DNA from: Nakamurella alba
Lineage (GTDB): Bacteria; Actinomycetota; Actinomycetes; Mycobacteriales; Nakamurellaceae
Length of the DNA: 64,000 nt
Assembly: GCF_009707545.1 (NCBI RefSeq)
Contig: NZ_WLYK01000001.1
Span: 1,736,001-1,800,000 of the forward strand
Reading direction: 5' to 3'
The translations under genes and the position numbers were made by a program. Below are positions 2,639 to 31,169 of this stretch, piece by piece. The notes beneath the pieces were generated by a model, which made no database searches, was not told the DNA's origin, and worked only from the letters and a program-made list of their open reading frames with translations. Position 1 is the first letter of the stretch, and the number at the start of each line of letters is the position of its first letter.

Positions 2639-2652
2639 CTAGCGATTGCTAG
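2639..2652. promoter_or_regulatory. Putative TetR-type operator, copy 1
   Basis: The 14-bp sequence CTAGCGATTGCTAG is a near-perfect palindrome (CTAGCG-AT-TGCTAG). It lies between the divergent SIMPL and acyl-CoA dehydrogenase genes, about 100 bp before the dehydrogenase start. It matches the repeated island motif YTANCG-NN-CGNTAG. Confidence 0.65.
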
Positions 2653-2704
2653 TTAACATGAGCCGGACACCCGGCACCGTTGCCACGCCCCGAGGAGAAA
2701 CGTC

Positions 2705-2758
2705 ATGGAACTGTCGTTCACACCGCTCGCCCGGCCGAAGGGCACGGTGTCGCGGTGA
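2705..2758 (+). CDS. Possible 17-codon leader ORF overlapping the acyl-CoA dehydrogenase start
   Basis: An ATG at 2705 follows a good ribosome site (GAGGAGAA, about 5 bases away). It opens a frame of 17 codons that ends with TGA at 2756-2758. That stop overlaps the GTG start of the dehydrogenase (2755) in a GTGA arrangement. This would make dehydrogenase translation coupled to a leader peptide. The alternative is an old or artefactual frameshift in the gene's N-terminus. Confidence 0.4.
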   Translation: MELSFTPLARPKGTVSR

Positions 2759-3921
2759 GTCGGGAGATCGCCGCGCTGCGCAGCCCGCGCACCATCTACG
2801 GCCCCGAGCACGAGCAGTTCCGGGCGGCCTTCCGCAGCTTCCTGCAGCGCGAGGCGCTGCCGCACCGGGAGCGGTGGCTGGCCGACGGCATCATCGACCG
2901 CGACTTCTGGAAGAAGGCTGCGGCCGACGGATTCGTGGCGTTCACCGCCCCGGAGCGGTTCGGCGGCCTGGGTATCGACGACTTCCGGTTCAACGCCGTC
3001 ATCGACGAGGAGGTCGCCTACCTGGGCGCCGCCACCGATGCGTTCCAACTGACCAACGACATCGTCGGCCCGTACTTCTGGGACCTGGCCTCGCCGGAGC
3101 AGCAGGAGCGCTGGCTGCCCGGGATCGTCGACGGCAGCACCGTGCCGGCGATCGCGATGACCGAACCCGGCACCGGATCGGACCTCCGTGGGATCCGCAG
3201 CACCGCCACCCGGACCGACGGCGGCTGGCTGGTCAACGGGTCCAAGACCTTCATCACCAGCGGGATCCAGGCGGACCTGATCATCGTCGCGGCGAAGGTC
3301 GTCGATCCGGAGATCAACGGGATCGGACTGTTCGTGGTGGACGCCACCACCCCCGGGTTCCGGCGCGGCCGCAAACTGGACAAGGTCGGCCGGCAGGCGC
3401 AGGACACCGCGGAGCTGTTCTTCGACGACGTGCTCGTCCCGGACGCCGATGTGCTGGGCGAGGCAGGCCGCGGATTGCCTTTGCTGATGGGCAATCTCGC
3501 GCAGGAGCGACTGGCGATGGCGGTGTCCGCGATCGCCGATGCGGAGCAGGCGCTGCAGGACACGCTCGAGTACGTGTCCACGCGGACCGCATTCGGCGCG
3601 CCGGTGGGCACCTTCCAGGCGAACCGGTTCTCGATGGCCGACATGGTGACCGAGGTCCGGATCGGGCGGGTCTACGTCGACGACTGCATCGAGCGGCAGA
3701 GCCGGAAGGCGTTGCCGGACGCCGAGGCGGCGGGCGCCAAGTACTGGGCGACCGAGCTGCAGTGGCGGGTGCTGGACCGGTGCCTGCAGCTGCACGGCGG
3801 GTACGGCTACATGAACGAGTACGACATCGCCCGCCGCTGGCGGGATGCGAGGGTCCAGCGCATCTACGGCGGGACCTCCGAGATCATGCAGGAGATCGTC
3901 GGGCGCTCGATCGGCCTGTGA
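2755..3921 (+). CDS. Acyl-CoA dehydrogenase family protein
   Basis: A 388-residue flavoprotein of the acyl-CoA dehydrogenase family. It should introduce an alpha,beta double bond into an acyl-CoA and pass electrons to ETF. Visible family marks are AMTEPGTGSDL, the NGSKTFITSG stretch and the C-terminal IYGGTSEIM. In that last motif the position that is the catalytic Glu in medium-chain enzymes (YEGT) is Gly, so the base must lie elsewhere, as in isovaleryl- and long-chain-type enzymes. The GTG at 2755 gives a normal N-terminus and follows an apparent 17-codon leader. Its 3' end overlaps the convergent tetR gene by 38 bp. An operator-like palindrome lies upstream at 2639. Confidence 0.88.
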   Translation: MSREIAALRSPRTIYGPEHEQFRAAFRSFLQREALPHRERWLADGIIDRDFWKKAAADGFVAFTAPERFGGLGIDDFRFNAVIDEEVAYLGAATDAFQLTNDIVGPYFWDLASPEQQERWLPGIVDGSTVPAIAMTEPGTGSDLRGIRSTATRTDGGWLVNGSKTFITSGIQADLIIVAAKVVDPEINGIGLFVVDATTPGFRRGRKLDKVGRQAQDTAELFFDDVLVPDADVLGEAGRGLPLLMGNLAQERLAMAVSAIADAEQALQDTLEYVSTRTAFGAPVGTFQANRFSMADMVTEVRIGRVYVDDCIERQSRKALPDAEAAGAKYWATELQWRVLDRCLQLHGGYGYMNEYDIARRWRDARVQRIYGGTSEIMQEIVGRSIGL

Positions 3922-4729
3922 CGGTCGCCGCCCGGGCCCGCCGGCGGGGCGACGGGGGGAGCGGGGTGACCACCGACTCCTCCGGCTCCGCCGGCACACC
4001 GGCGTCCGGTGTGGCCGCGGCGGCCGCCGGCGCGGTGCGCGTGTCGGGCGTGGCCTCCAGCTCACGGATCCGGGCCCGCGCCTGCTCGATGACACCGGTG
4101 GAGGCGCCGACCGTGTGCGCGGCGATCTCGACGTAGTCGGCGGCGATCCGGTCCGGGCTGATCCGCCCCTCCGGGCGGTACCAGGTGGCGACCGACTGGA
4201 TCATGCCGAGCAGCGCCCGTGCCGTCTGTTTCGGCGACACCACGTCGAAAAGCCTTGCCTGCACGCCGTCCTCGATCGCGACCCGGAGCATGTCCTCCAC
4301 CTGCTTGCGCTTGGCGGCGTACACGGTGCGGTTCTCCGGCCCGAGGCTGCGCACCTCCGCATCGAGGTGCGCCAGCCGGCCGGTGGTGCTCATGTAGAGC
4401 ACGAGACACTCGACCAGGGTGAGGAACCGGGCATCCGGATCGGTACCCGCGTCCTCGAGAGCCTGTGCCGCCAGCAGGTTCACGTGCGAGATCCCGGCGT
4501 CCAGCAGCGCCGTCAGGATCCCTTCCTTGTTGTCGTGGTAGTAGTACAGGACGGGCACGGTCACCCCGACGCGCCCGGCGATGTCGCGGACAGACGTTCC
4601 GTGGTAACCGTTCTCGTTGAACGCCTCGAGCGCCGCGGTCAGGATGGGACTCAGCGGGGTGGTGATGGAATCCCGCCACCCTGCGGCGTCGCCCGCGGTC
4701 CCGTCGTTGTCCTGCACGATCCCTCCCAT
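3884..4729 (-). CDS. TetR family regulator, probable local regulator of the catabolic island
   Basis: A 281-residue regulator. The N-terminal helix-turn-helix spans residues 28-72, with FNENGYHGTSVRDIAGRVGV followed by LYYYHDNKEGIL. The ligand-binding region runs to about residue 220. After that comes an Ala/Pro-rich and then arginine-rich tail that is unusual for the family. I chose the ATG at 4729 because a GGAG ribosome site precedes it. The longer start at 4801 would sit right against the operator at 4803. That palindrome lies in the leader of this gene and matches the sites across the island, so autoregulation and control of the island are likely. The ligand is probably an acyl-CoA of the pathway, by analogy with the family. 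Confidence 0.88.
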   Translation of the reverse strand: MGGIVQDNDGTAGDAAGWRDSITTPLSPILTAALEAFNENGYHGTSVRDIAGRVGVTVPVLYYYHDNKEGILTALLDAGISHVNLLAAQALEDAGTDPDARFLTLVECLVLYMSTTGRLAHLDAEVRSLGPENRTVYAAKRKQVEDMLRVAIEDGVQARLFDVVSPKQTARALLGMIQSVATWYRPEGRISPDRIAADYVEIAAHTVGASTGVIEQARARIRELEATPDTRTAPAAAAATPDAGVPAEPEESVVTPLPPSPRRRARAATVTGRSSARRSPA

Positions 4730-4802
4730 GGCTGTTGCTCCAGTTCCTGCGCGGTTCCGTCGTCCGTCGATCCGCTGTCCGGCGGCGTTGTTCCGGGACA
4801 TG

Positions 4803-4816
4803 CTAGCGACCGTTAC
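4803..4816. promoter_or_regulatory. Putative TetR operator, copy 2 (tetR autoregulation site)
   Basis: CTAGCG-AC-CGTTAC lies 74 bp before the chosen tetR start and just after the end of the upstream SDR gene. Its reverse complement GTAACG-GT-CGCTAG fits the island motif. Its place in front of tetR supports the link between this regulator and the motif. Confidence 0.6.
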
Positions 4817-4843
4817 ACCGTGATGGGGGCAGCACGACGGAGG

Positions 4844-5647
4844 TCACCACACCGAGTCCCCGCGCAGCACCGCATCGGCACCACCGTCGGCGAAGAGCAC
4901 CTGTCCGGTGATCAGCGTGTTCCCCGCACCGGCCAGCCAGGCCACCACGGCCGCGATCTCCTCCGGGGCGGCCGGGCCGCGCAGGGGCATCGGCACGGTG
5001 TCCTCCAGCCTGGCCCGCCGTTCCGGCGTGGCGAGCTGCGCGGCGATCATCGGGGTGCGGACCATTCCCGGCGCGACCGCGTTCAGCGTGATCCCGTCGG
5101 CCGCCCAGCCCGGGGCGCTGCGGCGTACCCAGCGGGCCAGAGCCGTCTTCGCCGCCGGGTAGATCCCGGCCCGGTCCGGCTCGGCACCGTCGACCTCGCC
5201 GGCCATACGGAGGGTGAGACGCTCGGTCTCCGCCTCGTCCCCGGCGAGCAGGGCGTCCACCAGGCCGGAACGTGCACCGGTCATCGGGAAGGCGGCAGCG
5301 AAGGAGGCGAGCGCCACCACCCGCGCCGCATCGGAACGGGCCAACCAGGGGCGTAACGACTCCAGCAGTCGCACGGTGCCGTCGAAGTTCAACCGGACGG
5401 TCTGCAGGGTCGGCGCGATGGTGCCCGCGCAGGTGACGACCACGTCCAACGGGTCCTCGCCGAGCAGGTCGCCGATCGCCGCCACTGCGGTGGCCCGACC
5501 GTCCGGAGCCGACAGGTCGGCGGTCACCGCGGCATCCCGGAGATCCACCCCGATGACCCGACATCCCTGCGCGGTCAGCAGGTCCGCGGTCGCGGCACCG
5601 ATACCGGATGCTGCTCCGGTGACCACCGCGGTGCGTCGAGGACTCAC
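4844..5647 (-). CDS. Short-chain dehydrogenase/reductase, 3-alpha-hydroxysteroid dehydrogenase-like
   Basis: A 267-residue classical-type SDR. It has the nucleotide site TGAASGIG near the N-terminus and a YPAAK active-site pair. The spacing and the short segment after the first beta strands resemble the 3-alpha-hydroxysteroid dehydrogenase/coniferyl-alcohol dehydrogenase group, which oxidises or reduces hydroxyls on ring compounds. This assignment is by eye. The GTG start (5647) overlaps the stop of the upstream luciferase-like gene as GTGA, so the two are translationally coupled. The tetR gene follows in the same direction. Confidence 0.85.
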   Translation of the reverse strand: MSPRRTAVVTGAASGIGAATADLLTAQGCRVIGVDLRDAAVTADLSAPDGRATAVAAIGDLLGEDPLDVVVTCAGTIAPTLQTVRLNFDGTVRLLESLRPWLARSDAARVVALASFAAAFPMTGARSGLVDALLAGDEAETERLTLRMAGEVDGAEPDRAGIYPAAKTALARWVRRSAPGWAADGITLNAVAPGMVRTPMIAAQLATPERRARLEDTVPMPLRGPAAPEEIAAVVAWLAGAGNTLITGQVLFADGGADAVLRGDSVW

Positions 5648-6588
5648 CCGGCGGCCCCGATCCGGGGCGTGACCGCCTGCTGCAGTCCGGTGCGGAACGG
5701 TCCGGTGAGCAGTTCCAGGTGCCGTCCGGTGAGCTCCTCACTCATTCCACCGATGCGGTCGAAGAGGAACACGTCGGTGACCGGGAGTCCGTCCAGGTCG
5801 GCCGAGAGTCGCTGTACCGCTTGGTCGACCGTGAGGAACTGCAGCTTCGGCAGGGCAGAGGGCCGGCCCTTCGGCTCCGCGTCGGTGTAGGTGGCGCGCC
5901 GGGCGGCGCGGGCGTGCTCGATGATCTCCGAGCGGGCCCGTTCCGGGTCGTCGCACAGCACGATGTTGGCCAGACCGCCCATCCTGGCGACCGACCGGTC
6001 GTGGCCGCCTTCGTCCAGACCGTCGAGGTACGGCTCGAGCAGGTCCCGGTCCAGCCAGAGCAGACCGACGCCCAGCTTCCCCGCCCACCGGGCGCCGACG
6101 GGCCCGCGGGCGCCGTACCAGAGCGGTACCGGATCCTGGACCGGCCCCGGCGTCACGGTGCCGTCCGACCAGAGCCCGGGCAGCGCGCGGAGGGTGCGCC
6201 GGAAGTCCCGGTAGCGATCGGCGTGGGAGGCACCGAACGCGGTGAACTCCTTGGGGTCCCAGCCCGAACCGAGCCCCAGCTCGAGCCTTCCGGCACTGAG
6301 GATGTCCACCAGCGCCGCCTCCTCGGCGAGCAGCCGGTCGCTGCGGAACGGGGTGACGACGACGGCGGTGCCCAGCCGCACCCGGCTGGTCCGGGCGGCG
6401 AGGGCGGCGAGCAGGGTGAGCGGCTGCGAGAGGTAGCCGTCCGGCGCCATGTGGTGCTCTGTGGTCCACACCGCATCCAGGCCGGCCTGCTCCGCGTGCA
6501 CCACACGGTCGAGGGCAGCGGCGTACAGCTCCGCCCAGTCCTCCTTGGCGCCGGGGTTACGGAGGTCCATGTACAGGCCGATGCGCAT
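5644..6588 (-). CDS. LLM class (luciferase-like) flavin-dependent oxidoreductase
   Basis: A 314-residue TIM-barrel enzyme of the bacterial-luciferase/F420-dependent family. Family marks are the early WTTEHH motif, the VRLGTAVVV strand and GRLELGLGSGWDPKEF. Members use FMN or F420 for oxidation, reduction or mono-oxygenation; the cofactor cannot be decided here. The start MRIGLYMD at 6588 is the usual N-terminus, and six extra codons are possible upstream. It is first in a three-gene operon with an SDR and tetR. An operator-like palindrome at 6600-6613 lies directly before it. Confidence 0.87.
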   Translation of the reverse strand: MRIGLYMDLRNPGAKEDWAELYAAALDRVVHAEQAGLDAVWTTEHHMAPDGYLSQPLTLLAALAARTSRVRLGTAVVVTPFRSDRLLAEEAALVDILSAGRLELGLGSGWDPKEFTAFGASHADRYRDFRRTLRALPGLWSDGTVTPGPVQDPVPLWYGARGPVGARWAGKLGVGLLWLDRDLLEPYLDGLDEGGHDRSVARMGGLANIVLCDDPERARSEIIEHARAARRATYTDAEPKGRPSALPKLQFLTVDQAVQRLSADLDGLPVTDVFLFDRIGGMSEELTGRHLELLTGPFRTGLQQAVTPRIGAAG

Positions 6589-6599
6589 CGCCCCATCGT

Positions 6600-6613
6600 T
6601 TATCAACCGCTAG
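6600..6613. promoter_or_regulatory. Putative TetR operator, copy 3
   Basis: TTATCA-AC-CGCTAG followed by GTATA lies 12 bp before the luciferase-like gene start. The right half is a perfect motif half-site and the left half is degenerate. It shares the divergent region with copy 4. Confidence 0.55.
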
Positions 6614-6685
6614 GTATAGGTCAAGTGAAACTGGCGGAGAGGTCCGGATCCGCGTGGCCCGCGCCACAATTGGGGCTTGCACTGT

Positions 6686-6699
6686 TTAACCAACGATAG
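6686..6699. promoter_or_regulatory. Putative TetR operator, copy 4
   Basis: TTAACC-AA-CGATAG followed by GTAGG lies about 70 bp before the acyl-CoA synthetase gene. It would sit between a possible -35 box (TTGCAC at about 6676) and a -10-like TAGGCT at about 6701. A regulator bound here would block the promoter. Confidence 0.5.
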
Positions 6700-6766
6700 G
6701 TAGGCTCGTCGCGTTCGATCATCACGGGCGTCTCCCGCCCGTCCCGCACCGTCGCGAGAGGTGAAC

Positions 6767-8440
6767 ATGTCCGGTCCGGTGCTCTCCCTGCGCGACTCCG
6801 GTGCTCCCGCCGGTCCGGCGGGCGAGACCCTCGGCGGGGTACTGGTTTCCGCCGCGCAGGACCACCCGTCGACCGTGGCGGTGGCGTTCCCCGACCACCG
6901 GCTCACCGTCGCCGCGCTGCTCGGGCGTGCCGACGAACTGGCCGCGGCCCTGATCGGCCACGGCATCGGCCCGGGGGACAAGGTCGGCATCCTGATGCCG
7001 AACTCCGGCGACTACGTGGTTGCGCTCTTCGGCATCGCCCGTGCCGGCGCGGTCGCGGTCCCGATCAACGGCCGCTTCAAGGAGACCGAGTTCGGGCACG
7101 TGGTCCGCCACGCCGATCTGCGGATCCTGCTCGCCGCACCGGCGGCCGGCGCCGACTACGCACGCCTGCTCGGCACCCTCGGCGACGCCGATCGTGGCCT
7201 GCTGGAGCTGGTCGTCTGGTCCGGGGAAGCACTGTCCGGCACCGTCCGGCCCGACGAGTTCCTCACCGCGGCAGCAGGTGTCGAGGCCACCGAGGTGGAG
7301 CGCAGGTCCGCCGGGGTCCGCCCGGACGATGTCGCAATCCTCATGTACACGTCCGGGACGACGGCGCTGCCCAAGGGCTGCCTGCTCGCCCACGGGGCCA
7401 TCGTCCGGCACGCCACCAACATCGGCCGGGAGCGCTTCCACCTCACCGCGGACGACCGCTTCTGGGACCCGCTGCCGCTGTTCCACTGCGGCGGCATCGT
7501 CCCGATGGTCTCCTGCATCCAGGTGGGCGCCGAGTACCACCACGCCGGTCACTTCGACGCCGACACCGCGCTCCGGGTGCTGGAGACCGAACGGATCACG
7601 CTCGCCTACCCGGCTTTCGAGGCGATCTGGCTGGGCATCCTCAACCACCCGCGGCGGCGCTCGGCCGATCTGTCGTCGATCCGGATGGTCATGAACATCG
7701 CGACGCCGGAGCGACTGGCCTGGTACGAGGAGCAGATGCCCTGGGCGCCGCAGGTGTCCTCCTTCGGCTCCACCGAGTCCGCCAGCCACCTCACGCTCAC
7801 CGAGCCGGACGAACCCTACGAGGTCCGGATGCGCACCACCGGACGGCCCATCGGCGGCATGGAGATGAAGATCGTCTCGCCGGAGTCCGGCGTCGAGGTC
7901 GCCGAGGGGGAGCGGGGCGAACTCTGCTTCCGCGGGTACGCGCGGTTCCTCGGGTACTACAAGGACCCGGAGGCCACCGCCCGCACCATCGACAGCAACG
8001 GGTGGTTCCACACCGGTGATCTCGCCTCCGTGGAGGACGGCCGGCTGATCTACCGCGGCCGGCTGAAGGACATGCTCAAGGTCGGCGGCGAGAACGTCGC
8101 CGCACTGGAGATCGAGGACTACCTGGTCCGGCACCCGGCGATCGCGGTGGCCCAGGTCGTGGCCGCGCCGGACGCCCGGTACGGCGAGGTCCCGGCGGCC
8201 TTCGTGCAGTTGCAGCCCGGTGCGTCGATCACCCAGGACGAGGTCATCGACTTCTGCCTGGACCGCATCGCCACGTACAAGATCCCGCGCTACCTGCGCA
8301 TCGTCGACGAGTGGCCGATGTCCGGGACGAAGGTGCGCAAGTACGAACTGCGCGACCGGATCCGGCAGGAACTCGAGGACGCCCACATCACCGAGGCGCC
8401 GGCGCCGCGCGCCCGCCCGACGACGGAAGGTTCGGTGTGA
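6767..8440 (+). CDS. AMP-dependent acyl-CoA synthetase
   Basis: A 557-residue ANL-family ligase that should activate a carboxylic acid to its CoA thioester through an acyl-adenylate. It shows the P-loop YTSGTTALPKG, the FGSTES adenine motif, GWFHTGD and the hinge RGRLKDMLKVGGENV. A C-terminal lysine sits in SGTKVRKYELR where the adenylation lysine is expected. The start at 6767 follows an AGAGG ribosome site. It overlaps the next gene by GTGA and begins a long operon that continues into an ABC importer. This places substrate activation next to uptake. A close relative lies at 21570. Confidence 0.92.
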   Translation: MSGPVLSLRDSGAPAGPAGETLGGVLVSAAQDHPSTVAVAFPDHRLTVAALLGRADELAAALIGHGIGPGDKVGILMPNSGDYVVALFGIARAGAVAVPINGRFKETEFGHVVRHADLRILLAAPAAGADYARLLGTLGDADRGLLELVVWSGEALSGTVRPDEFLTAAAGVEATEVERRSAGVRPDDVAILMYTSGTTALPKGCLLAHGAIVRHATNIGRERFHLTADDRFWDPLPLFHCGGIVPMVSCIQVGAEYHHAGHFDADTALRVLETERITLAYPAFEAIWLGILNHPRRRSADLSSIRMVMNIATPERLAWYEEQMPWAPQVSSFGSTESASHLTLTEPDEPYEVRMRTTGRPIGGMEMKIVSPESGVEVAEGERGELCFRGYARFLGYYKDPEATARTIDSNGWFHTGDLASVEDGRLIYRGRLKDMLKVGGENVAALEIEDYLVRHPAIAVAQVVAAPDARYGEVPAAFVQLQPGASITQDEVIDFCLDRIATYKIPRYLRIVDEWPMSGTKVRKYELRDRIRQELEDAHITEAPAPRARPTTEGSV

Positions 8441-8964
8441 CCACCGATCTCGACACCGCTACGACCCCGGACCTGCGCACCGAGCACGAGCTCCGGCGCC
8501 TGGCCGAGCGCTACGCGGTCGCCATGGACCGCACGGACCTGGACGAGCTCGCCCGGCTGTTCGTCCCGGACGGGCGACTGGAGGTACGCGCCCCGGGCCG
8601 GGAGGCGACGATGGGCGTCTTCCACGGGCCGGGCCCGGACGGCGTCGGCCGGATCGCGCTGCTGCTCGGCGAGCTCTACGAGTCGACCATGCACCACATC
8701 ACCGGCCAGGTCGTGCATCCCGATCCGGACGGGAACCCCGACCGGGCCACCGGTCTCACCTACTGCCTGGCCTACCACATCGTCAACGACACCGCGAACG
8801 GCGGCGGTCGTTCGCTGGAGACCCTGGGTGTGCAGTACGAGGACACCTTCGTCCGGGTCGACGGCCGGTGGCGGTTCGCCGTGCGCGGCGCCCTGCGGGT
8901 CTGGTCGCAGATCACCGACACCCCGCGCACGCCGTTGATCGTGGACCGCGCCGCCACCCGCTGA
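8437..8964 (+). CDS. SnoaL-like / NTF2-fold protein
   Basis: A 175-residue protein with a typical SnoaL_4/NTF2-like pattern: an N-terminal helix LRRLAERYAVAMDR, the DLDELARLF segment and a C-terminal strand set ending GRWRFAVRGALRVW. Proteins with this fold in catabolic clusters are often ring hydratases, isomerases or small hydroxylase-like subunits. No catalytic residue set is clear enough to choose. The GTG start is embedded in the synthetase stop (GTGA), so the two are made together. Confidence 0.8.
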   Translation: MTTDLDTATTPDLRTEHELRRLAERYAVAMDRTDLDELARLFVPDGRLEVRAPGREATMGVFHGPGPDGVGRIALLLGELYESTMHHITGQVVHPDPDGNPDRATGLTYCLAYHIVNDTANGGGRSLETLGVQYEDTFVRVDGRWRFAVRGALRVWSQITDTPRTPLIVDRAATR

Positions 8965-9118
8965 CGCCGCCGATCCCGCCAATCCCGCTGACCCATGGTC
9001 CGGCGCCGCCGGACCACCGCACCACCGCACCACCGCAGCATCGGTGCACGAGAGCCTCCCACCACCAGCAGTTGTCATCGCACGTCCCCCCGTCCAGAGA
9101 GAACCGGAGAAGACAGCA

Positions 9119-10396
9119 ATGCGCCTCAGAACAAAGTCGTTCGCGCTGCTCGCCGCGGTGGCGCTGACCGCCGCCGCGTGCGGGAGCGACAGCAGCACCA
9201 CCACGTCCAGCAGCACCGCGGCACCGACGACCTCGGCGAGCGCCGCCACCTCGGCACCCACCAGCGCCGAGAGCTCCTCGACGGGTGCGTCGACCGATGC
9301 GTCGTCCGGCGGCTCGGAGACCTCCCCCGCCGGCGGCTCGGACGTACTGCCCGCCGAGGTCAAGGCGACCTTCCTCGGTGACCTGACCGGTGCCGCGGCG
9401 TTCTGCGGCGGCTCCGCCCGCACCGGCATCGAGCAGGCGGTGAACAAGGTCAACGAGGACAAGATGCTCGGCGACGGTGTCACCCTGTCGGTCGACTTCC
9501 AGGACACCGGCTCCGATCCCAAGCAGGCTGCGACCCAGATGTCGCAGATCGCCGGCACCGACACCATGGCCACGCTGATCGGCTGCGCGTCCGCGGTCGG
9601 TCAGGGCACCGTGCCGGTCGCACAGCAAGCGGGCGTGCCGGTGATCGCCATGCAGTCCGGTACTCAGGCCATCCTGGACGCCGGCAACTACGTCTTCCGC
9701 ACCACCGCGCCGCAGTCCACCTACCACGGTGTGCAGGTCGACTACTACGCCGCGCAGGGGGCCAAGACGGCCGCCATGGTGTACCAGAGCGATAACCCGA
9801 CGTTGACCGAGTTGGCCGAGAAGATCTACCCGGACCTGCTCGCGGCCAAGGGCATCGAGCTCATCTCCACCGAGGCGTTCCAGGGCGAGAACTTCGACTT
9901 CTCCGCGCTGGCCAGCAAGGTCGTCGGCGAGAACCCGGACGTCGTCTTCCTCATGGGCCAGGGCACCCCGAACGTCACCGTCGCCACCCAGCTGCTGCAG
10001 CAGGGATTCGAGGGACGGGTCGGCGGATCCGCCGGCTTCGCCAACGGTGTGCTAGAGCCGCTCGGGGCCGACGCGAACGGCTTCACCTGGCCGACCGACT
10101 TCAACCCCGCTTCGCCGGAGCCGTCGACCCAGGCCTTCGTCCAGTACTACACCGAGAAGACCGGCAAGGCTCCGGATGCCTTCGCCGCCGAGTCGTGGGA
10201 CACCGTGATGCTGCTGGTCGCCGGCCTGAACAAGACCACCGACTACACCCGCGCCGGTCTGCGGGACGGCATCGAGGCTGCTACCCAGGACGGCCTGGAC
10301 GGTGCGGTCGGCCCGATCACCTTCGAGAACCGGGACGCCCGCATCGGCGGCCTGCTCGTCGAGTGGGAGGACGGCGCCACCAAGATCGTCGAGTGA
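9119..10396 (+). CDS. Branched-chain amino acid-type ABC importer, binding lipoprotein
   Basis: A 425-residue LivJ-like lipoprotein. The signal ends in a lipobox LTAAAC. A Ser/Thr-rich linker of about 50 residues follows and probably spans the cell wall. The periplasmic-binding fold type I starts at about VKATFLGDLTG and includes NPDVVFLMGQG. In catabolic islands such proteins often bind aromatic or other carboxylates rather than amino acids. The start follows a GGAGAAG ribosome site. The gene is 154 bp after the SnoaL-like gene and may have its own promoter. A strong hairpin separates it from the permease gene. Confidence 0.9.
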   Translation: MRLRTKSFALLAAVALTAAACGSDSSTTTSSSTAAPTTSASAATSAPTSAESSSTGASTDASSGGSETSPAGGSDVLPAEVKATFLGDLTGAAAFCGGSARTGIEQAVNKVNEDKMLGDGVTLSVDFQDTGSDPKQAATQMSQIAGTDTMATLIGCASAVGQGTVPVAQQAGVPVIAMQSGTQAILDAGNYVFRTTAPQSTYHGVQVDYYAAQGAKTAAMVYQSDNPTLTELAEKIYPDLLAAKGIELISTEAFQGENFDFSALASKVVGENPDVVFLMGQGTPNVTVATQLLQQGFEGRVGGSAGFANGVLEPLGADANGFTWPTDFNPASPEPSTQAFVQYYTEKTGKAPDAFAAESWDTVMLLVAGLNKTTDYTRAGLRDGIEAATQDGLDGAVGPITFENRDARIGGLLVEWEDGATKIVE

Positions 10397-10402
10397 TGTG
10401 AC

Positions 10403-10441
10403 ACCCGCGGTGGGGCCGGACTTCCCGGCCCTACCGCGGGT
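10403..10441 (+). promoter_or_regulatory. Intercistronic hairpin after the binding-protein gene
   Basis: Arms 10403-10419 and 10425-10441 pair over 17 positions with one G-U pair and a 5-base loop. No U-run follows. Such hairpins between binding-protein and permease genes usually stabilise the upstream message or cause partial termination, giving more binding protein than permease. Confidence 0.7.
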
Positions 10442-10489
10442 CCGACAGGTACACCACGGCACCACCGCTCTTGCAGAATCGGGAAGGCG

Positions 10490-19240: not shown

Positions 19241-19244
19241 CACC

Positions 19245-21509: not shown

Positions 21510-21569
21510 GCACCGCCCCAGCACTTCCCAGCACCTCCTGATCGACCGCTGCAGCTCGAGAGGACCCCG

Positions 21570-24036: not shown

Positions 24037-24068
24037 CCGGGCCTCTCAGCGGTCGGCGTCGTACTCGG

Positions 24069-24902
24069 TCAGCGGTCGTCGTACTTGTCGCCGCGGCCGG
24101 CCGCCGAGAGCACCGCGGTCCAGCCGCCGTCCACCACGATCGACTGGCCGTTCACGTAGGCGCTCAGGTCCGAGGCGAGATACACGCAGGCACCGGCGAT
24201 GTCACCAGGGGTGCCGAGCCGCCCCAGCGGGACCACGCCGAGCATCGGGTGGTGGTCCGCGCCGCTGGCCAACGGCCGATCGATGAGCGTCATCGCCGTC
24301 TCGATGACACCCGGGTGCACGGCGTTGACGCGGACTCCGCGCCCGGCCAGCTTCGGATCGCCGGCCGCGGCATAGGTGATCAGCCGCACCCCGCCCTTGC
24401 TCGCCGAGTAGCCGGGGGAGGCGACCGAGCCGTGCAGGCCGGCGACGCTGGACATGTTGATGATGCTGCCGCCGCCCTTCTCCGCCATCCGGCTGCCCGC
24501 GGCCTTGATCCCGAAGAACACACTGCGCAGATTGATCCCGAGGATGCGGTCGAACTCCTCGACCGGAAGGTCCAGGATTGAACCGGGCTTGCCGACGATG
24601 CCGGCGTTGTTGACCAGGACATCGACGCCGCCGAACTCGTCGGCGGCGGCCATCAGCGCCTCCCAGTCCGACTCGCTGCTCACGTCGCAGGTGACGAAAC
24701 GGTAGGTGGCGCCGAGCTCGTCGAGCAGCTCCGTGGTGGGCTTCCCGCCCTCCCGCGGCTCGGAGATCAGGTCGGCGAGGATGATCGCGGCAGCGCCCTG
24801 CCGGGCGTACTCGAGTGCGATCTCCCGGCCGTTGCCGCTCGCGGCGCCGGTCACGACGGCGACCTTGCCGGCCAGCAGGCCGGCGGTGGGTGCGGTGCCC
24901 AT
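24069..24902 (-). CDS. Short-chain dehydrogenase/reductase
   Basis: A 277-residue SDR with cofactor site TGAASGNG, NNAG at the end of beta-4, and catalytic YSASK. An Asp after beta-2 (ILADLI) suggests NAD(H) use. It resembles the mycofactocin-associated or carveol-type SDR group in its long insert after beta-2, though that link is by eye. The gene is first on its strand, diverging from the hydrolase at 25002 with a perfect operator palindrome between. Confidence 0.87.
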   Translation of the reverse strand: MGTAPTAGLLAGKVAVVTGAASGNGREIALEYARQGAAAIILADLISEPREGGKPTTELLDELGATYRFVTCDVSSESDWEALMAAADEFGGVDVLVNNAGIVGKPGSILDLPVEEFDRILGINLRSVFFGIKAAGSRMAEKGGGSIINMSSVAGLHGSVASPGYSASKGGVRLITYAAAGDPKLAGRGVRVNAVHPGVIETAMTLIDRPLASGADHHPMLGVVPLGRLGTPGDIAGACVYLASDLSAYVNGQSIVVDGGWTAVLSAAGRGDKYDDR

Positions 24903-24955: not shown

Positions 24956-24969
24956 CTAGCGGTCGCTAG
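24956..24969. promoter_or_regulatory. Putative TetR operator, copy 6 (best palindrome)
   Basis: CTAGCG-GT-CGCTAG is perfect in both 6-bp halves. It lies between the divergent SDR gene (start 24902) and hydrolase gene (start 25002), so one site could control both. Confidence 0.72.
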
Positions 24970-25001: not shown

Positions 25002-25841
25002 ATGGTGCATGATCCGGGGGTGGCAACGGATCCGGTGCAAGCGGGCACCCTGGACGTCGACGGGTCCCGGATCGCCTGGTGGACAGCGGGTACCGGCCCG
25101 GGTACGCCGTGGCTGCTGCTGCACGGCGGCGGAGCCCATGCGGGCTGGTGGCGGCCGATGGCAGCTGTCGTGCGAGGGCGCCCGGTGGTGGCGCTCGACC
25201 TGTCCGGGCACGGCCGGTCCGGCTCCCGGGAGCGGTACAGCTACCAGGGCTGGGCGCAGGAACTCGTCGCGGTCGCCGGAGAGGTGTGCGGAGGTCCGGT
25301 GGTGGTCGTTGCGCACAGCATGCACGGCCGCACCGGTGTGGCCGCTGCGGCCCGCCACCCGGACGCCGTGGCCGGCCTGGTCCTGCTGGACACCATCATC
25401 CCCACCCGGTCCGGCGAACCCGACCCGCGGCGGCCCGGAGGTCCGGTCCGGCAGCCGACCCGCGAGGACGCGCTGCGTCGGTTCCGGCTGCGGCCCGGGA
25501 CCGGCCTGGTCGATCCGGCCATCCTCTCGGTGCTGGCCGAGGAGTCAGTGGTGCAGGACGCAGGCGGCTGGACCTTCGCCTTCGACCCGCGGACCTTCGA
25601 GGCGGCGGACCTGGTCTCGATCAACGGCCTGGTCCACCGGGTGCGGTGCCCGGTGGCGGTGGTGCGGGGATCGCTGAGTGCGATCGCGACGCCGCCGATG
25701 GCGGCGGAGTTCTCGGCCGCGCTCGGGCGTCCCGTCGTGCGGGCCGAGGTGCCCGGTACCGACCACCACATGATGCTGGAGGACCCGGAGGGCACCGCGC
25801 GCGTGCTCGGCGCCTCGGTCCGGGCGCTCCGCATCCGGTGA
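25002..25841 (+). CDS. Alpha/beta hydrolase
   Basis: A 279-residue alpha/beta-hydrolase-fold enzyme. It has the oxyanion segment LLLHGGGAHAGWW, LDLSGHGRS, and a nucleophile elbow VAHSMHGRTG in which the usual Gly-x-Ser-x-Gly has Ala and His replacing parts. The C-terminal His is visible in GTDHHMM. The acid residue is unclear, since the usual strand reads VVRGSLSAI without Asp. It could cleave an ester, a thioester or a C-C bond of a ring-opened product. A GTG at 25020 is an alternative start. It lies directly after the operator. Confidence 0.8.
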   Translation: MVHDPGVATDPVQAGTLDVDGSRIAWWTAGTGPGTPWLLLHGGGAHAGWWRPMAAVVRGRPVVALDLSGHGRSGSRERYSYQGWAQELVAVAGEVCGGPVVVVAHSMHGRTGVAAAARHPDAVAGLVLLDTIIPTRSGEPDPRRPGGPVRQPTREDALRRFRLRPGTGLVDPAILSVLAEESVVQDAGGWTFAFDPRTFEAADLVSINGLVHRVRCPVAVVRGSLSAIATPPMAAEFSAALGRPVVRAEVPGTDHHMMLEDPEGTARVLGASVRALRIR

Positions 25842-25884: not shown

Positions 25885-25898
25885 CTGACGAGCGCTAG
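25885..25898. promoter_or_regulatory. Putative TetR operator, copy 7
   Basis: CTGACG-AG-CGCTAG followed by GTATAC lies about 55 bp before the fused hydratase/dehydrogenase gene. The right half is perfect. A TATACG just downstream could be part of the -10 region. Confidence 0.6.
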
Positions 25899-25951: not shown

Positions 25952-28045
25952 ATGACCGTGATCAGCCGTACCGACGACGGGTCCGTGGCCGTCCTGACGC
26001 TCGACGTCCCGGGCCGGTCCACCAACGTGGTGGACGAGCAGGTGCTCGCCGAGCTGGCCGACCACCACAGTGCTCTCGAGGCCGACCCGGCGATCGAGGC
26101 CTTCGTCGTCACCTCGGGCAAGAAGAGCGGCTTCGGGGCCGGTGCCGACCTCGACTGGCTCCCGCAGCTCGTCGCCCGACCGGATGCCGCCGAGTACCTC
26201 GGTGGTGTGCACGCGCTGATGGCACGGATCGCCGGCTCCGGTACACCGATGGTCGCGGCGGTCGACGGGTTCGCGTTCGGCGGCGCCCTGGAACTGCTGC
26301 TCGCCGGGGAGGAGATCGTGGTGACGCCGTCGGCCACCCTGGGCCTGCCGGAGGTCACACTCGGGCTGCTGCCCGGTGGGGCCGGCACCCAGCTGGTCCG
26401 CCGCTGGCTCACCGCCGAGCAGGCCCTCGACGTCCTGCTCACCGGCCGTCCGCTGACCGCCGCGGCGGCGCAGGAGGCCGGCCTGGTGCAGGAGATCGTG
26501 GCCCCCGAGGACCTGCTGGCCGTCGCCATCGGCCGGGCGCGGGCTGCTGCCGCCCGCACCACCCGTCGTACCGACCGCGACAGCAGCGAGTCGCTCGCAG
26601 CCGCAGCTGCATCCCGGCGCGAGACCCTCGCCCCGGCCGCCGGTTCCGCGCCCGACCGGATCCTGGGGGCGGTGGCCGCAGGGGCAGCCGGCGGATTCGC
26701 CGCCGGGTCGGCTGCGGAGGTGGCCGCGTTCCTGGACCTGGCCGTCTCGCCCACCTCCCTCGCACTGCGCCACCTGTTCCAGGCCGAGGCGGACATCAAG
26801 CGCCGCAGCCGGTCCGACGGTGCACCGGTGTCGGCCCTCGGCGTGGTCGGGGCCGGCCGGATGGGTGCGGCGATCGCTGCCACCGCGGTCACCAAGGGTC
26901 TGCAGGCGGTGGTCAGGGACGTCGGTCAGGACAAGGTGGACGAGGCGCACGGCTACCTCGACCAGGTCCTCTCGCGCACCAAGGCCTCGCCGGACAAGCG
27001 GGCCGCGGCCGAGGAACGATGGTCGGGCACGACGGAGTGGGAGGGCTTCGCCGGCGCTGACGCGGTGATCGAGGCGGTCTTCGAACTGCCCTCGCTCAAG
27101 AACGAGACCCTCTCCGCGATCTCCGGTCTCGTCGCACCGGATGCACTGATCAGCACCAACACCTCGGCGATCCCGATCTCGTCGCTGGCCCCCGCGGTGT
27201 CCAACCCGGGCCGGTTCATGGGCACCCACTTCTTCTCCCCGGTGGACCGCATGCCGCTGGTCGAGCTGATCCCGCACACCGGCACCGACCCGGCCACGGT
27301 GGCCCGGGTGGCCGGCCTGGCCCGGTCCCTGGGCAAGGTGCCGGTCGTGGTCGCCGACGTGCCCGGCTTCCTCACCTCGCGGGTCTACGCCCGCTGGCTC
27401 ATCGAGGGCGTCCGGCTGCTGCTGGAGGGCGTGCCGGTACCGGCCGTCGACGCGGCGGCCAAGGCCGGCGGCTTCCCGGTCGGGCCACTGCAGGCGCACG
27501 ACGAGGCGTCGCTGGACCTGGTGGTCAAGGCCAGCATCACCCAGGTCGCCGAGGCGGTGATGACCGACCGGCTCGATGTCGCGACGGTCCGGGCCGCCCT
27601 GGAGAAGCTCATCGCCGCCGGGGTCACCGGCCGTAAGGACGGCTCCGGCTTCTACGCCTACGCCGACGGCCGCCGGTCCGGCGCCAACCCTCTGGTGGCC
27701 GACACCCTGGGCGTCACTGCCGATGTCGACGCCGTTCCGGCCGACGTGGTCCGCGACCGGCTGCTGTACGCCTTCGCCTCGGAGTGCTGGGTCTGCTGGG
27801 ACGAGGGCATCGTCTGCCACCCGGACGATGGCGACGTGGCCGCGGTGCTGGGCATCGGGTTCCCCCGCCCGCTGGGCGGCCCGTACCACTGGGCCGATGC
27901 CGTCGGCGCCGCCACCGTCGTCGCCCGGGCGGCCGAGCTGGATCCGGTGGCCTTCCCGGTCGGTGCCCGGCTGCCCGCGTTCGCGGCCGATGGCGGCAGC
28001 TTCGCCGCCGAGACCCGGCTCGCGGTGCCGGGCCGGCCGGCATGA
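25952..28045 (+). CDS. Fused enoyl-CoA hydratase / 3-hydroxyacyl-CoA dehydrogenase
   Basis: A 697-residue FadB/FadJ-like bifunctional enzyme for hydration and NAD-dependent oxidation in beta-oxidation. The crotonase half (about 1-190) holds GFGAGADLDWL and both catalytic Glu positions, in GGALELLLA and LPEVTLGLLP. An Ala/Arg-rich linker follows. The dehydrogenase half begins near residue 295 with GVVGAGRMG and has the catalytic His region GTHFFSPVDRMPLVEL and NTSAIPIS. The island also has a MaoC pair, so two hydratase systems of possibly opposite stereochemistry coexist. Its stop overlaps the next gene (ATGA). Confidence 0.92.
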   Translation: MTVISRTDDGSVAVLTLDVPGRSTNVVDEQVLAELADHHSALEADPAIEAFVVTSGKKSGFGAGADLDWLPQLVARPDAAEYLGGVHALMARIAGSGTPMVAAVDGFAFGGALELLLAGEEIVVTPSATLGLPEVTLGLLPGGAGTQLVRRWLTAEQALDVLLTGRPLTAAAAQEAGLVQEIVAPEDLLAVAIGRARAAAARTTRRTDRDSSESLAAAAASRRETLAPAAGSAPDRILGAVAAGAAGGFAAGSAAEVAAFLDLAVSPTSLALRHLFQAEADIKRRSRSDGAPVSALGVVGAGRMGAAIAATAVTKGLQAVVRDVGQDKVDEAHGYLDQVLSRTKASPDKRAAAEERWSGTTEWEGFAGADAVIEAVFELPSLKNETLSAISGLVAPDALISTNTSAIPISSLAPAVSNPGRFMGTHFFSPVDRMPLVELIPHTGTDPATVARVAGLARSLGKVPVVVADVPGFLTSRVYARWLIEGVRLLLEGVPVPAVDAAAKAGGFPVGPLQAHDEASLDLVVKASITQVAEAVMTDRLDVATVRAALEKLIAAGVTGRKDGSGFYAYADGRRSGANPLVADTLGVTADVDAVPADVVRDRLLYAFASECWVCWDEGIVCHPDDGDVAAVLGIGFPRPLGGPYHWADAVGAATVVARAAELDPVAFPVGARLPAFAADGGSFAAETRLAVPGRPA

Positions 28046-28794
28046 CCGCCCGACTGGCGCTGGTCACCGGCGGCAGCCGTGGCATCGGCCGGTGCACGGC
28101 GGAGATCCTGCTGGCCCGGGGCCATGCCGTGGTGATCACCGGCCGGGACCCGGAGCGGCTGGAGAAGGCTGCCGCCGAGCTCGGCGGGGACGTCCGCACC
28201 CTGGCGATGGACGCCGCGGACGTGGCCGGGACGGCGACCTCGTTCGCCGAGGTGGCGCCCGACATCCTCGTCGCCAACGCCGGTGTCGGCTACTCCGGCA
28301 CCGTCGCCTCCACCCCGCTCACCGACTGGGACGATGTCATCGCGACCAACGTCACGAGTGCGTTCGTCGCGATCAAGGCCGTGCTGCCGCACATGCTGGA
28401 GGCCGGGTGGGGGCGCATCGTCACCGTCGGGTCGATGGCGGCGCACGTGCCGATCCGCTACGGGATCGCCTACACCGCCTCGAAGCACGCGCTGTGGGGA
28501 CTGACCAGGGCGGTCTCCGTGGAGTGCCGGAAGAAGGGGGTCACCGCCAACATGGTGGCCCCGGCTTTCGTGCGCACCGACATGACGCGCGCCAACGCCG
28601 AGCTGCTCGGTGGTCCGATCGAGGAGGCCGAGGCCAAGCTCGGCGCGCTGTCCACCTGGGGCCGGCTGATCGAGCCGGAGGAGGTGGCCGAGCAGATCTG
28701 CCGGTTCACCGGCCCGGAGGCCGACGGCATCACCGGTACCTCGGTGACCATGGGCTTCGACAGCACCCTGGACACCGACCCGCTGACCGTCTGA
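28042..28794 (+). CDS. Short-chain dehydrogenase/reductase
   Basis: A 250-residue SDR with TGGSRGIG, NAGVGYSG and the active-site pair YTASK. The Arg after beta-2 (ITGRDPERL) suggests NADP(H) preference. It is coupled to the upstream fused enzyme by an ATGA overlap and probably acts on the same pathway. It is followed after 16 bp by the convergent PhzF-like gene. Confidence 0.88.
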   Translation: MTARLALVTGGSRGIGRCTAEILLARGHAVVITGRDPERLEKAAAELGGDVRTLAMDAADVAGTATSFAEVAPDILVANAGVGYSGTVASTPLTDWDDVIATNVTSAFVAIKAVLPHMLEAGWGRIVTVGSMAAHVPIRYGIAYTASKHALWGLTRAVSVECRKKGVTANMVAPAFVRTDMTRANAELLGGPIEEAEAKLGALSTWGRLIEPEEVAEQICRFTGPEADGITGTSVTMGFDSTLDTDPLTV

Positions 28795-28810: not shown

Positions 28811-29644
28811 TCAGTCGGCGCCGAGTGCCACCTCGCCGGTGATGCCGACGACAGTGCCGCCGCCCACCCAGATGTCATCGCCGACGGCCTCGACCGACAC
28901 CCGGCCGCGCCGCTGCAACCGGGTGCCCTGGGACGCGAGGTAGGAGCGCGGCGCGATGCCGGCCCCGATCAGCCACTGCGCGATCGAGGCGTTGAGACTA
29001 CCGGTCACCGGGTCCTCTCCCTCTCGGCTCACGAAGGCCCGAACCTCGTACTGCGCGGGCGAGCCCGGCGGGTAGGCGCCGACCACGCCGATGTTCGGGA
29101 CGCCGTCCAGCCGAAGTTCCTCGCGCTGCAGCGCCAGGACGGCGTCGGCGCCCCGCAGCAGCACCGCCAGCCAGCCCGGACCGTTGTCCGCCCACTGCGC
29201 ACCCAGGATCTCGTCCGGCCTCAGCCCGAGACCGTCCAACACCGCAGCCAGGTCCGCCTCGGACACCGGTCCGGACCGCAGCCGCGGCGGCGCCGCGAAG
29301 GCCAGCCGCTGGTCGGTGATCCGCACCCGCACCAGCCCGACGCCGCATTCCTGGACGAGTTCGGACGACCGGTGGGGGACTCCTCCCGCCTCCAGCCAGG
29401 CCCGGGCGGATCCGAGGGTGGGGTGGCCGGCGAACGGCAGTTCGCCGGCCGCGGTGAAGATCCGCAGCCGGTAGTCGGCGGCCGGGTCGGTGGGGGACAG
29501 CAGGAACGTCGTCTCGCTGAGGTTCGTCCACCGGGCGAACGCGGCCATCGTCGCGTCGTCGAGCGTGTCCGCGTCGTGCACCACCGCGACCGGGTTGCCC
29601 AGCAGGAACTCATCGGTGAACACGTCGATCTGGCTGAAGCGCAT
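28811..29644 (-). CDS. PhzF family isomerase/epimerase-like protein
   Basis: A 277-residue PhzF-fold protein. The active-site Glu is E44 in NLSETTFL. The family motifs FTAAGELPFAGHPTLGSA (about 65-82) and DPVTGSLNASIAQW (near 215) are complete. Members catalyse proton shifts or isomerisation on small cyclic or amino-acid-like substrates; most have no known substrate. It has no copy of the island operator in front and may not belong to the regulon. Confidence 0.88.
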   Translation of the reverse strand: MRFSQIDVFTDEFLLGNPVAVVHDADTLDDATMAAFARWTNLSETTFLLSPTDPAADYRLRIFTAAGELPFAGHPTLGSARAWLEAGGVPHRSSELVQECGVGLVRVRITDQRLAFAAPPRLRSGPVSEADLAAVLDGLGLRPDEILGAQWADNGPGWLAVLLRGADAVLALQREELRLDGVPNIGVVGAYPPGSPAQYEVRAFVSREGEDPVTGSLNASIAQWLIGAGIAPRSYLASQGTRLQRRGRVSVEAVGDDIWVGGGTVVGITGEVALGAD

Positions 29645-29804
29645 GGGAACACCCTGTCACGGCGGTGGCCGCTGCTGCGCGCCCGTCCCGATCGGCGGCA
29701 GACCCGCTGCGTCGTCGGGCGCTTCCATTGTTCCCGCCTGCGACCAGAGGCGCCCGCTCTCGTCGTCCCATCGCGGTGCACCGGCTCCGCGACCGGGGGG
29801 GGGC

Positions 29805-30332
29805 TCAGTTGCCGACCGGGAAGGGTCCTCCGGCGAACCATGCCTCGAACCCGGGCCGCCGGGACGACGCGCAGATCTCCAGCAGCACGCCGCCGGGGAG
29901 CCGGTGGTAGGCGAAGCCGGACGCGCCGTCCTGGCCGGAGTCGTAGGTGGCCAGCATCGGGGACCCGGATGCCGCGAGCGCGGCGGACGCCGCGGGCACG
30001 TCGTCGCACCAGGCGCCGATGTGGTGCGGGGCGATGATGCCGCCGACCCCGACCGGCTGCAGTGCCCACAGCGTGCCGGGCACGGCCTGGATCACCTCGA
30101 GGTGATGCGGGCCCTCGACGGTGTAGGCCAGACGCATCTCCGGCCGCACCGGGCCGTCCGGGCCCTTCAGCACCATCGTGCGGTCCTCGATCGGCGTCCA
30201 GCGCACTCCGAGCAGACGGCTGAGATCCGCCATGTCGCGTTCGATGTCGGAGACCACGAAGCCGGTGTGGAAGACCTCGAAGGCGGCGTCCGGCAGCGAA
30301 CCCGTGGGCAGTCCGCCGGGGAGGGCGGTCAT
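29805..30332 (-). CDS. VOC (glyoxalase/methylmalonyl-CoA epimerase-like) family protein
   Basis: A 175-residue vicinal-oxygen-chelate protein. Repeated beta-alpha-beta units are seen at FEVFHTGFVVSDIERDM and APHHIGAWCDDV, with metal-ligand candidates His, His and the Glu in VLLEICA. It may act as an epimerase or lyase on a CoA intermediate. The start overlaps the stop of the NTF2-like paralog at 30329, so these two form an operon behind operator copy 8. A run of nine G lies just after its end (about 29797-29805). Confidence 0.82.
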   Translation of the reverse strand: MTALPGGLPTGSLPDAAFEVFHTGFVVSDIERDMADLSRLLGVRWTPIEDRTMVLKGPDGPVRPEMRLAYTVEGPHHLEVIQAVPGTLWALQPVGVGGIIAPHHIGAWCDDVPAASAALAASGSPMLATYDSGQDGASGFAYHRLPGGVLLEICASSRRPGFEAWFAGGPFPVGN

Positions 30333-31147
30333 GCGATCGCCGCCGAGAGTCGGCGACCGCAGGCCAGCCGGTCGGTCACCACGTGGCCGGTGATGTCCCC
30401 GGTGGCCGGCGCGACGTGCAGGATGGCGGTGGCGTACAGCCGCGCGGTCGAGCCGACGGCCGACGCGAACCCGTCGCCGAGGCCGCCCAGGTAGCTGCCG
30501 TCGACCGCCACGTGCGCGGCCACCGCCGGGCCGGCGCCGAACAGGTCGAGCACCTCCACGGTCGGGGCATCGAGCCGCACCCGGTTCTCCGGATGGTCAC
30601 CCGCGTCCTCGGCGTCGAAGACGATCCCCGGCGCCGTGAGAAACGCTGCGCTGCAGAGATGGTCCCGAACGAGTTGCTCGCCCGCGGCGTCCGCAGGCGC
30701 GGGCGGGGCGGTCCACGGATCCATCGCGGGCGCGGGGATGACGTCGGCCCGTCCGTCGGCGGCCTGCCGTTGCCGCGACTCGTAGTCCTGCTCGACCCGG
30801 CACCGGGTCAACCGCTCCCCGTCGTACTCGTACAGGCTGATACCGCGCCAGACGGCGTCCTGCCCGTTGCGGAGCGAACGGCCGTGCTCGGAGAAGCGGA
30901 ACGCGGCGCGCGAGCCGTTGTTGAGCAGCTCGTGCACCGTGAATCCGAGCCCGGGGTACTGCCGGTACTGCTTCTCGGTCGCGGGCCGGTAGTGCTGCTC
31001 CCGGCCGCGGGCCACGAACGGGCCCATCAGCAGCTCGTAGTCGTCCACCATCAGCTCGCCGATGATCGACAGGTCGTGAGATGCGGTGTAGGAATAGGCG
31101 TATCGGCGCAGCAGTGCGCTGAGCGGATGCAGGTCCGGGCCGGGCAT
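30329..31147 (-). CDS. Uncharacterised NTF2-like protein, paralog of the 23236 gene
   Basis: A 272-residue protein with the same plan as the 23236 product. Shared pieces are ELMVDDY, GREQHYRPAT, LGFTVHEL, RFSEHGRSLR, WRGIS, CRVEQDYESR and TVEVLDLFGAG. By eye about half of the residues are shared. Both copies lie next to SDR genes and an operator, so they probably share one kind of reaction or form a hetero-oligomer. No catalytic assignment is possible from sequence alone. Confidence 0.75.
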   Translation of the reverse strand: MPGPDLHPLSALLRRYAYSYTASHDLSIIGELMVDDYELLMGPFVARGREQHYRPATEKQYRQYPGLGFTVHELLNNGSRAAFRFSEHGRSLRNGQDAVWRGISLYEYDGERLTRCRVEQDYESRQRQAADGRADVIPAPAMDPWTAPPAPADAAGEQLVRDHLCSAAFLTAPGIVFDAEDAGDHPENRVRLDAPTVEVLDLFGAGPAVAAHVAVDGSYLGGLGDGFASAVGSTARLYATAILHVAPATGDITGHVVTDRLACGRRLSAAIA

Positions 31148-31155
31148 CCGGTTAC

Positions 31156-31169
31156 CTTACAATCGGTTG
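31156..31169. promoter_or_regulatory. Putative TetR operator, copy 8
   Basis: CTTACA-AT-CGGTTG followed by GTAG lies between the divergent NTF2-like (start 31147) and SDR (start 31214) genes. It is one of the weaker matches, but its position is the same as in the other divergent pair at 24956. Confidence 0.48.

Follow-up and report, generated by a model that had tools for sequence, protein, structure and literature searches.

Palindromic candidate operators and a local TetR protein in a catabolic island of Nakamurella alba

One 14-bp palindrome recurs in front of most transcription units of a 29-kb catabolic gene island in Nakamurella alba, and a tetR gene inside the island carries a copy in its own leader. 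The island lies in a stretch of 64,000 nucleotides (assembly GCF_009707545.1, contig NZ_WLYK01000001.1, positions 1,736,001 to 1,800,000 of the forward strand), called the window below, whose first letter is position 1. Catabolic clusters that depend on coenzyme A (CoA) and are controlled by a local TetR repressor through multiple operators are well known; the clade of this TetR appears to be little studied. Comparison of sequences leads us to expect, with good confidence, that the TetR encoded at 3884-4729 represses the island units and its own gene via the palindromes and is released by an acyl-CoA of the pathway. This confidence is slightly lowered because the autoregulatory site, 4803, does not stand out with a matrix built from relatives of the protein.

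We infer TetR binding, repression, an overlap with promoters (judged by eye) and an acyl-CoA inducer, in the following way. A TetR dimer would bind the 14-bp core, which in the island has mostly CTAGCG half-sites and in relatives TTAGCG. As the core lies in or adjoins a promoter, bound TetR would block the transcription units of the island, its own gene included. A CoA thioester from the pathway would then bind the C-terminal domain and release TetR, and uptake, activation and beta-oxidation of the substrate would be switched on together. Release by an acyl-CoA is likely by analogy, because the fold neighbours AibR and FadR hold bound acyl-CoA.

Candidate operators in the island

The sites are listed with their rank among window positions scored with the 22-bp matrix from relatives (described in the next section). 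SDR stands for short-chain dehydrogenase/reductase.

2639-2652: operator CTAGCGATTGCTAG, before acyl-CoA dehydrogenase 1; rank 3
4803-4816: operator CTAGCGACCGTTAC, in the tetR leader, 73 bp before the ATG at 4729; rank 13, score 8.4
6600-6613: operator TTATCAACCGCTAG, before the luciferase-like/SDR pair on the minus strand; rank 7
6686-6699: operator TTAACCAACGATAG, before the ligase/SnoaL/Liv/CoA-transferase operon; rank 2
14933-14946: operator CTAGCGCTCGTTAA, sharing bases with the CoA-transferase stop codon and preceding the 14971-23252 operon; rank 5
24956-24969: operator CTAGCGGTCGCTAG, with identical half-sites, common to the divergent sdr2 and hydrolase genes; rank 1
25885-25898: operator CTGACGAGCGCTAG, before the fused enoyl-CoA hydratase/3-hydroxyacyl-CoA dehydrogenase; rank 6
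31156-31169: weak candidate operator CTTACAATCGGTTG, between the divergent snoaL and SDR genes; rank 23

All eight palindromes named in an earlier sequence-only reading of this DNA are present exactly, and the local TetR does have one in its own leader, as that reading had said. When a matrix from seven sites was scored on the eighth over the whole window, six of the eight held-out sites, 4803 among them, had no higher-scoring non-site position; the exceptions are 6686, outscored by one such position, and 31156, outscored by 13. With the 22-bp matrix made from relatives only, the best distinct places in the window are 24956, 6686, 2639, 14933, 25885 and 6600 (the fourth rank being 2639 in a 4-bp-shifted register), followed by the non-site 61420 with a score of 11.9. 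By these two rankings six sites are solid, 4803 is fair, through leave-one-out only, and 31156 is weak. The weak ninth palindrome once proposed at 34665 is dropped: it ranks 156th with the relatives' matrix (score -2.7) and is not among the best 25 places by the matrix made from the window itself. The outer base of the half-site is C in 12 of 16 island half-sites and mostly T in relatives.

The sites are in excess and clustered. With at most one mismatch, YTANCGNNCGNTAR occurs seven times in the window; shuffled sequences average 1.5, and none of 100 shuffles reached seven. Genome-wide it has 78 places (308 for the reversed pattern), of which seven lie within 2639-25898, a span of 0.4% of the genome where 0.30 would be expected (Poisson p 3e-8). 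CTAGCG-NN-CGCTAG, again with at most one mismatch, has two places in the 6.05-Mb genome, both inside the island, against 84 for its reversal, a loose control because GATC replaces CTAG in it. The exact CTAGCGNNCGCTAG occurs a single time in the 6.05 Mb, at 24956, and TAGCGNNCGCTA with at most one mismatch has 22 genome places, four of them in the island (reversed pattern, 303). Density was compared among the island (28.8 kb, 2501-31300), the remaining window (32.7 kb) and 19 control stretches of the same genome (380 kb); at a score of at least 12 with the relatives' matrix, these hold six, zero and one places, respectively. An even spread outside promoters had been named beforehand as the outcome that would speak against a regulon, and this check came out for the regulon, the motif being concentrated in the island and at promoter positions.

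It is hardly credible that the palindromes are chance matches picked by eye in a window of 71% GC. The pattern of the sequence-only reading is indeed at chance level when two mismatches are allowed (54 against 53.4), and 31156 and 34665, taken singly, resemble chance; however, 0.08-1.5 sites are expected against 6-7 observed, and the relatives' matrix contradicts chance for at least six sites. Patterns allowing two to three mismatches were given up as useless in this GC-rich genome.

The motif around TetR relatives and at a paralogue

The window TetR has a TetR_N helix-turn-helix domain (55.2 bits; cut-off 24) and a TetR_C_24 domain (92.5 bits), that is, an all-helical ligand-binding domain, and its model has the TetR fold (TMt 0.88-0.91 to the chains of PDB 3vpr). 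As is usual in this family, palindromic candidate operators lie near its own gene and its putative targets, the own-gene site being among the less strong ones. Relatives were sought in 150 related genomes and, by means of an alignment of seven proteins, in the contigs of GTDB species, and 76 loci (1.39 Mb) were taken from the best 80 of 216, the window being left out of the counts. Several loci come from sister species, so that counts are not independent events; the site sequences comprise 157 distinct ones.

Around these loci TAGCG-NN-CGCTA occurs in 12 distinct copies against 0.16 expected, the lowest p among inverted repeats of half-length five; for the window alone, the lowest p at this half-length belongs to CTAGC with a gap of 4 (two copies). 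A first de novo count of dyads on 900-bp upstream stretches gave nothing. The 22-bp matrix grown from the seed has the consensus TTACTTAGCGATCGCTAAGTAA (TTAC-TTAGCG-AT-CGCTAA-GTAA), and in its last round 235 distinct sequences scored at least 12, against 12 places with the reversed matrix. After merging, the 76 loci hold 187 places at this score (13 with the reversed matrix). At least one place is found in 75 of the 76 loci (reversed, 13), and in 42 loci one lies at most 700 bp upstream of the tetR match (reversed, 2). Coding sequence, with open reading frames (ORFs) trimmed at the start, makes up 74% of the loci, and 161 of the 187 places are outside it. The surroundings of homologues of the island's molybdopterin enzyme served as a negative control, and 20 such loci (~374 kb) hold three places (scores 12.1-12.3); the operator therefore goes with the TetR clade and not with the molybdopterin enzyme. 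At scores of at least 14 (n = 178 across the 76 loci), the second half-site base is T in both halves of 85 sites, G in both halves of 15 and mixed in 75.

Second registers shifted by 4 bp were seen at 68 and 62 of the 157 distinct sites, on the two sides. PMC10636190 describes dimer-of-dimers binding for DarR, and such binding was considered for these registers and rejected: a simulation with independent columns gives 38%/37% against 43%/39% observed. Because the rates are nearly equal, the shifted registers are a property of the motif and add no evidence. Separately, six Rhodococcus loci (L062, L063, L065, L066, L068, L069) have two TetR relatives within ~6 kb, with candidate operators nearby.

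The same genome encodes a paralogous TetR (50% identity) on contig 8, with tetR at 227,583-228,254 and neighbours that resemble the island thiolases, acyl-CoA dehydrogenases, CoA-transferase and SDRs. Two strong sites of another form, TGARCGNNCGYTCA (TGARCG-NN-CGYTCA), lie near this gene in what is another CoA-catabolic cluster. Exact copies occur in the 6.05 Mb only at 226,681 and 230,614 of contig 8, ~0.9 and 2.4 kb from the paralogue tetR and on either side of it; at one mismatch the pattern is near background (25 against 17 reversed). Since the exact TGARCG copies occur beside the contig 8 tetR only, each paralogue has its own operator variant adjoining. The recognition helix gives no simple account of this difference: the paralogue has VPALYYHH, the same as a relative (G053) with a TTAGCG site, and the window protein has VPVLYYYH. 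In the tree, the window TetR sits on a long branch within a starred set of eight that includes the G053 protein and those of Phytohabitans, Micromonospora, Sphaerisporangium and others, and the contig 8 paralogue is just outside this set. The recognition helix of the window TetR (residues 81-91) differs from that of all six aligned relatives (V for A, Y for H).

With a 50% identical paralogue in the genome, the island sites might be bound mainly by another regulator, for example this paralogue or an unlinked TetR, the local TetR having a different target. The ARCG-NN-CGYT core common to both operator variants, and the acceptance of both by the relatives' matrix, would fit such an arrangement. 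We nevertheless regard it as unlikely, as each exact variant clusters by its own tetR copy, one site is within the leader of the local tetR, and the matrix from relatives of this local protein places six of the eight sites at the top.

Several observations weigh against control of the island by the local TetR through these sites. The autoregulatory site scores below the best of the reversed matrix (8.9), and 31156 scores 5.7, its shifted register at 31152 reaching 10.0. The density contrast shrinks at lower thresholds, with seven places in the island, one in the rest of the window and seven in the control stretches at score 10, and nine, three and 19 at score 8. At half-lengths six and seven other inverted repeats lead, the TTAGCG and CTTAGCG forms being lower in the lists, and a mirror repeat of CGCTA with a gap of 7 (28 against 1.15 expected in the loci) has a p below that of the operator; the repeat count alone is therefore no proof, and the choice of the TAGCG-NN-CGCTA seed was guided by the window. 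With one mismatch the bare seed is rarer than its control (77 against 126 for the reversed form). Less reliance can be placed on the 14-bp matrix made from the window itself, whose reversed form scores as high as 17.7 and 18.1 in individual relatives. Because the loci were picked by TetR similarity, the site excess is an association and not a contact. A strict sigma-70 scan of 2500-15100 reported no promoter. A search for a second copy of the island via the molybdopterin enzyme had no success, the 20 loci showing only scattered SDR, ligase, transporter, hydratase and SIMPL matches. Finally, DarR, a binder of cyclic nucleotides, is also a fold neighbour, which bears on the predicted class of ligand.

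Transcription units, promoters and pathway

The units of the island are as follows.

2680-3921, plus strand: acyl-CoA dehydrogenase 1, starting at TTG 2680 or, likelier, GTG 2755
3884-4729, minus strand: tetR (TetR_N + TetR_C_24); the tail has low model confidence and is probably disordered; the ORF is open to 4801
4844-6606, minus strand: luciferase-like monooxygenase (5644-6606) and SDR (4844-5647)
6761-14946, plus strand: acyl-CoA ligase, SnoaL-like protein, LivKHMGF-type ATP-binding cassette transporter, class III CoA-transferase
14971-23252, plus strand: Zn-type reductase, acyl-CoA dehydrogenase 2, MaoC-like protein, thiolase, molybdopterin oxidoreductase, acyl-CoA ligase
23236-24902, minus strand: SDR (24069-24902) and SnoaL-like protein (23236-24036)
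25002-25841, plus strand: alpha/beta hydrolase
25952-28794, plus strand: fused enoyl-CoA hydratase/3-hydroxyacyl-CoA dehydrogenase, then SDR (adh_short, in ORF 27784-28794)
28811-31147, minus strand: SnoaL-like, glyoxalase-like and PhzF-like genes, PhzF without a site of its own
31214-31963, plus strand: SDR (FabG-like), starting at ATG 31214

The earlier statement that nearly every unit has an operator in front of it holds in outline, apart from the weak 31156 and the dropped 34665. The operon to 23252 is likewise retained, with six genes from 14971 by ORF calls instead of seven. The PhzF-like gene (28811-29644) does lack a site, as had been noted, but it lies on the same strand as the snoaL/glyoxalase pair, 160 bp downstream of it, and may be read through from this pair, which starts at 31147. 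A 17-codon ORF at 2705-2758, with GAGGAGA resembling a ribosome-binding site before its ATG and a TGA overlapping GTG 2755, is perhaps a translationally coupled leader of acyl-CoA dehydrogenase 1. Beyond the island, ORF 32326-34638 joins a luciferase-like monooxygenase to a berberine-bridge-type oxidase dependent on flavin adenine dinucleotide and was judged to be outside the regulon.

With two exceptions, the sites are intergenic or close upstream of a start codon: 14933 overlaps the CoA-transferase stop codon, and 6600 overlaps the luciferase-like ORF at its first in-frame TTG but not at its ATGs. By eye, the palindrome at 6686 stands between TTGCAC and TAGGCT, which are separated by 18 bases, and TA-rich hexamers are seen after 2639, 24956, 25885 and 31156. 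Such hexamers, closely after several sites, could be -10 boxes, and the repeats might then be a promoter element of the island, a sigma-factor site, and not operators. This is highly unlikely: the element is palindromic and occurs in relatives too, its exact core is found once in 6.05 Mb with four of the 22 one-mismatch places in the island, and a sigma site would be expected to be more widely spread and asymmetric.

Of 20 proteins compared with NCBIfam, three reach a curated cut-off among the matches listed, up to 25 for each protein (thiolase subfamily TIGR01930, SDR subfamily NF005559 and PhzF family TIGR00654), and these are broad classes without a named substrate. Because no family names a substrate, the deduction goes no further than the import of an acid, its activation to a CoA ester, and beta-oxidation accompanied by additional redox steps. 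In 16 congeners sampled, no homologue of the molybdopterin enzyme was found at E 1e-120, and the best TetR matches were weak (1e-18 or worse). Of 397 genomes of the order, 94, counting the window's own, have a match to the molybdopterin enzyme, with identities of 38-52% once the self-match is set aside, and a search of 198 genomes across the phylum at 1e-45 gave TetR matches in only two besides the window's own. The island looks accessory to this species; its GC content does not stand out, and no tRNA gene lies in the window. The partners that recur around the TetR relatives, with only matches of at least 40% identity listed, are a thiolase (42-66%) and acyl-CoA dehydrogenase 1 (42-55%), at many of the 76 loci. 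In one Rhodococcus example the order is thiolase, SDR, TetR, nitronate monooxygenase-like protein, acyl-CoA dehydrogenase and SDR, an operon that resembles the KstR2 gene set.

Relation to known TetR systems

The fold neighbours of the window TetR include PfmR, KstR2, AibR with isovaleryl-CoA and FadR with stearoyl-CoA. KstR2 (Rv3557c) is a neighbour in both sequence and fold; among the differences, its E value to the window TetR alone is ~5e-5. The core consensus of KstR and KstR2 is AACNNGTT or CAAGNNCTTG, and the eight sites differ from these forms at 5-9 positions (7-9 for KstR2), so the sites do not fit a KstR or KstR2 regulon, and the half-site is, as first suspected by eye, unlike that of either protein. 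AibR of Myxococcus (PDB 5k7z), solved with isovaleryl-CoA and its operator, is a fold neighbour with an acyl-CoA inducer; the fold search gives 25-27% identity for it.

PfmR (TTHB023) of Thermus thermophilus HB8, PDB 3vpr, is the best solved match by both sequence and fold; at 26-29% identity and with a different target set, the window TetR does not count as its orthologue. According to PMC7022988, PfmR has the in-vitro consensus MYKAMYGRYCRKTMRK, with sites at its own operon (SDR, MaoC, ligase and acyl-CoA dehydrogenase genes) and at genes of fatty-acid type, its thiolase gene having two sites that overlap with a 4-bp shift. The island operators have the same two-base-spaced layout; the eight sites differ from the consensus at 3-4 of 16 positions, and 780 of the 63,985 window positions come as close. 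The Thermus genomic sites listed there mostly have ACCG where the island sites have ARCG. The gene set of PfmR also differs, and here the genes form one contiguous island. PaaR (TTHA0973), of the same strain, has the consensus CNAACGNNCGTTNG (CNAACG-NN-CGTTNG) and controls phenylacetate genes, with phenylacetyl-CoA as effector, as cited in PMC6651687. The eight sites differ from that published form at 2-4 of 10 fixed bases, and at most four mismatches are also found at 1,416 of 63,987 window positions. No Paa oxygenase is among the Pfam matches of 30 window proteins. Six-base half-sites, a two-base spacer and CG or YG toward the centre are common to the island sites and to PfmR and PaaR, the fit being approximate only.

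The operator of Mce3R, as described in PMC11667970, is asymmetric, nonpalindromic and 25 bp long and is bound by a double TetR protein; the island, with a single TetR and palindromes, differs from such a regulon. PMC4482099 gives 11 predicted mycobacterial TetR motifs as logos, one of which may be the same as the island operator. Exact-word searches of the open-licence PMC literature found nothing on this TetR clade or its operator. The suggestion of an undescribed regulon survives as regards KstR and KstR2, but the operator type is already known, because the two-base-spaced layout is in print for the Thermus PaaR and PfmR proteins.

A wider picture can be offered tentatively, with slightly more doubt than belief. 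The window TetR may be one of a broad clade of actinobacterial proteins that has been little studied (Rhodococcus, Amycolatopsis, Saccharopolyspora, Streptomyces, Frankia, Nocardia and others). In this clade some variant of the relatives' consensus would accompany each copy, beside changing sets of CoA-catabolic genes. Paralogues might be kept apart by the outer two half-site bases (CTAGCG here, TGAGCG on contig 8), and a ready-made switch would be re-used for new catabolic islands. The interest is moderate, because the clade is wide and apparently little studied and a paralogue pair with private operators is at hand. These data offer a concrete candidate regulator/operator pair for a TetR clade found beside catabolic genes in many actinobacteria. 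Through the operator, CoA-pathway genes that lie scattered could be assigned to regulons, whose substrates may be found via what releases the repressor, and the paralogue pair in one genome would be a handy case of how local switches are insulated from each other after duplication.

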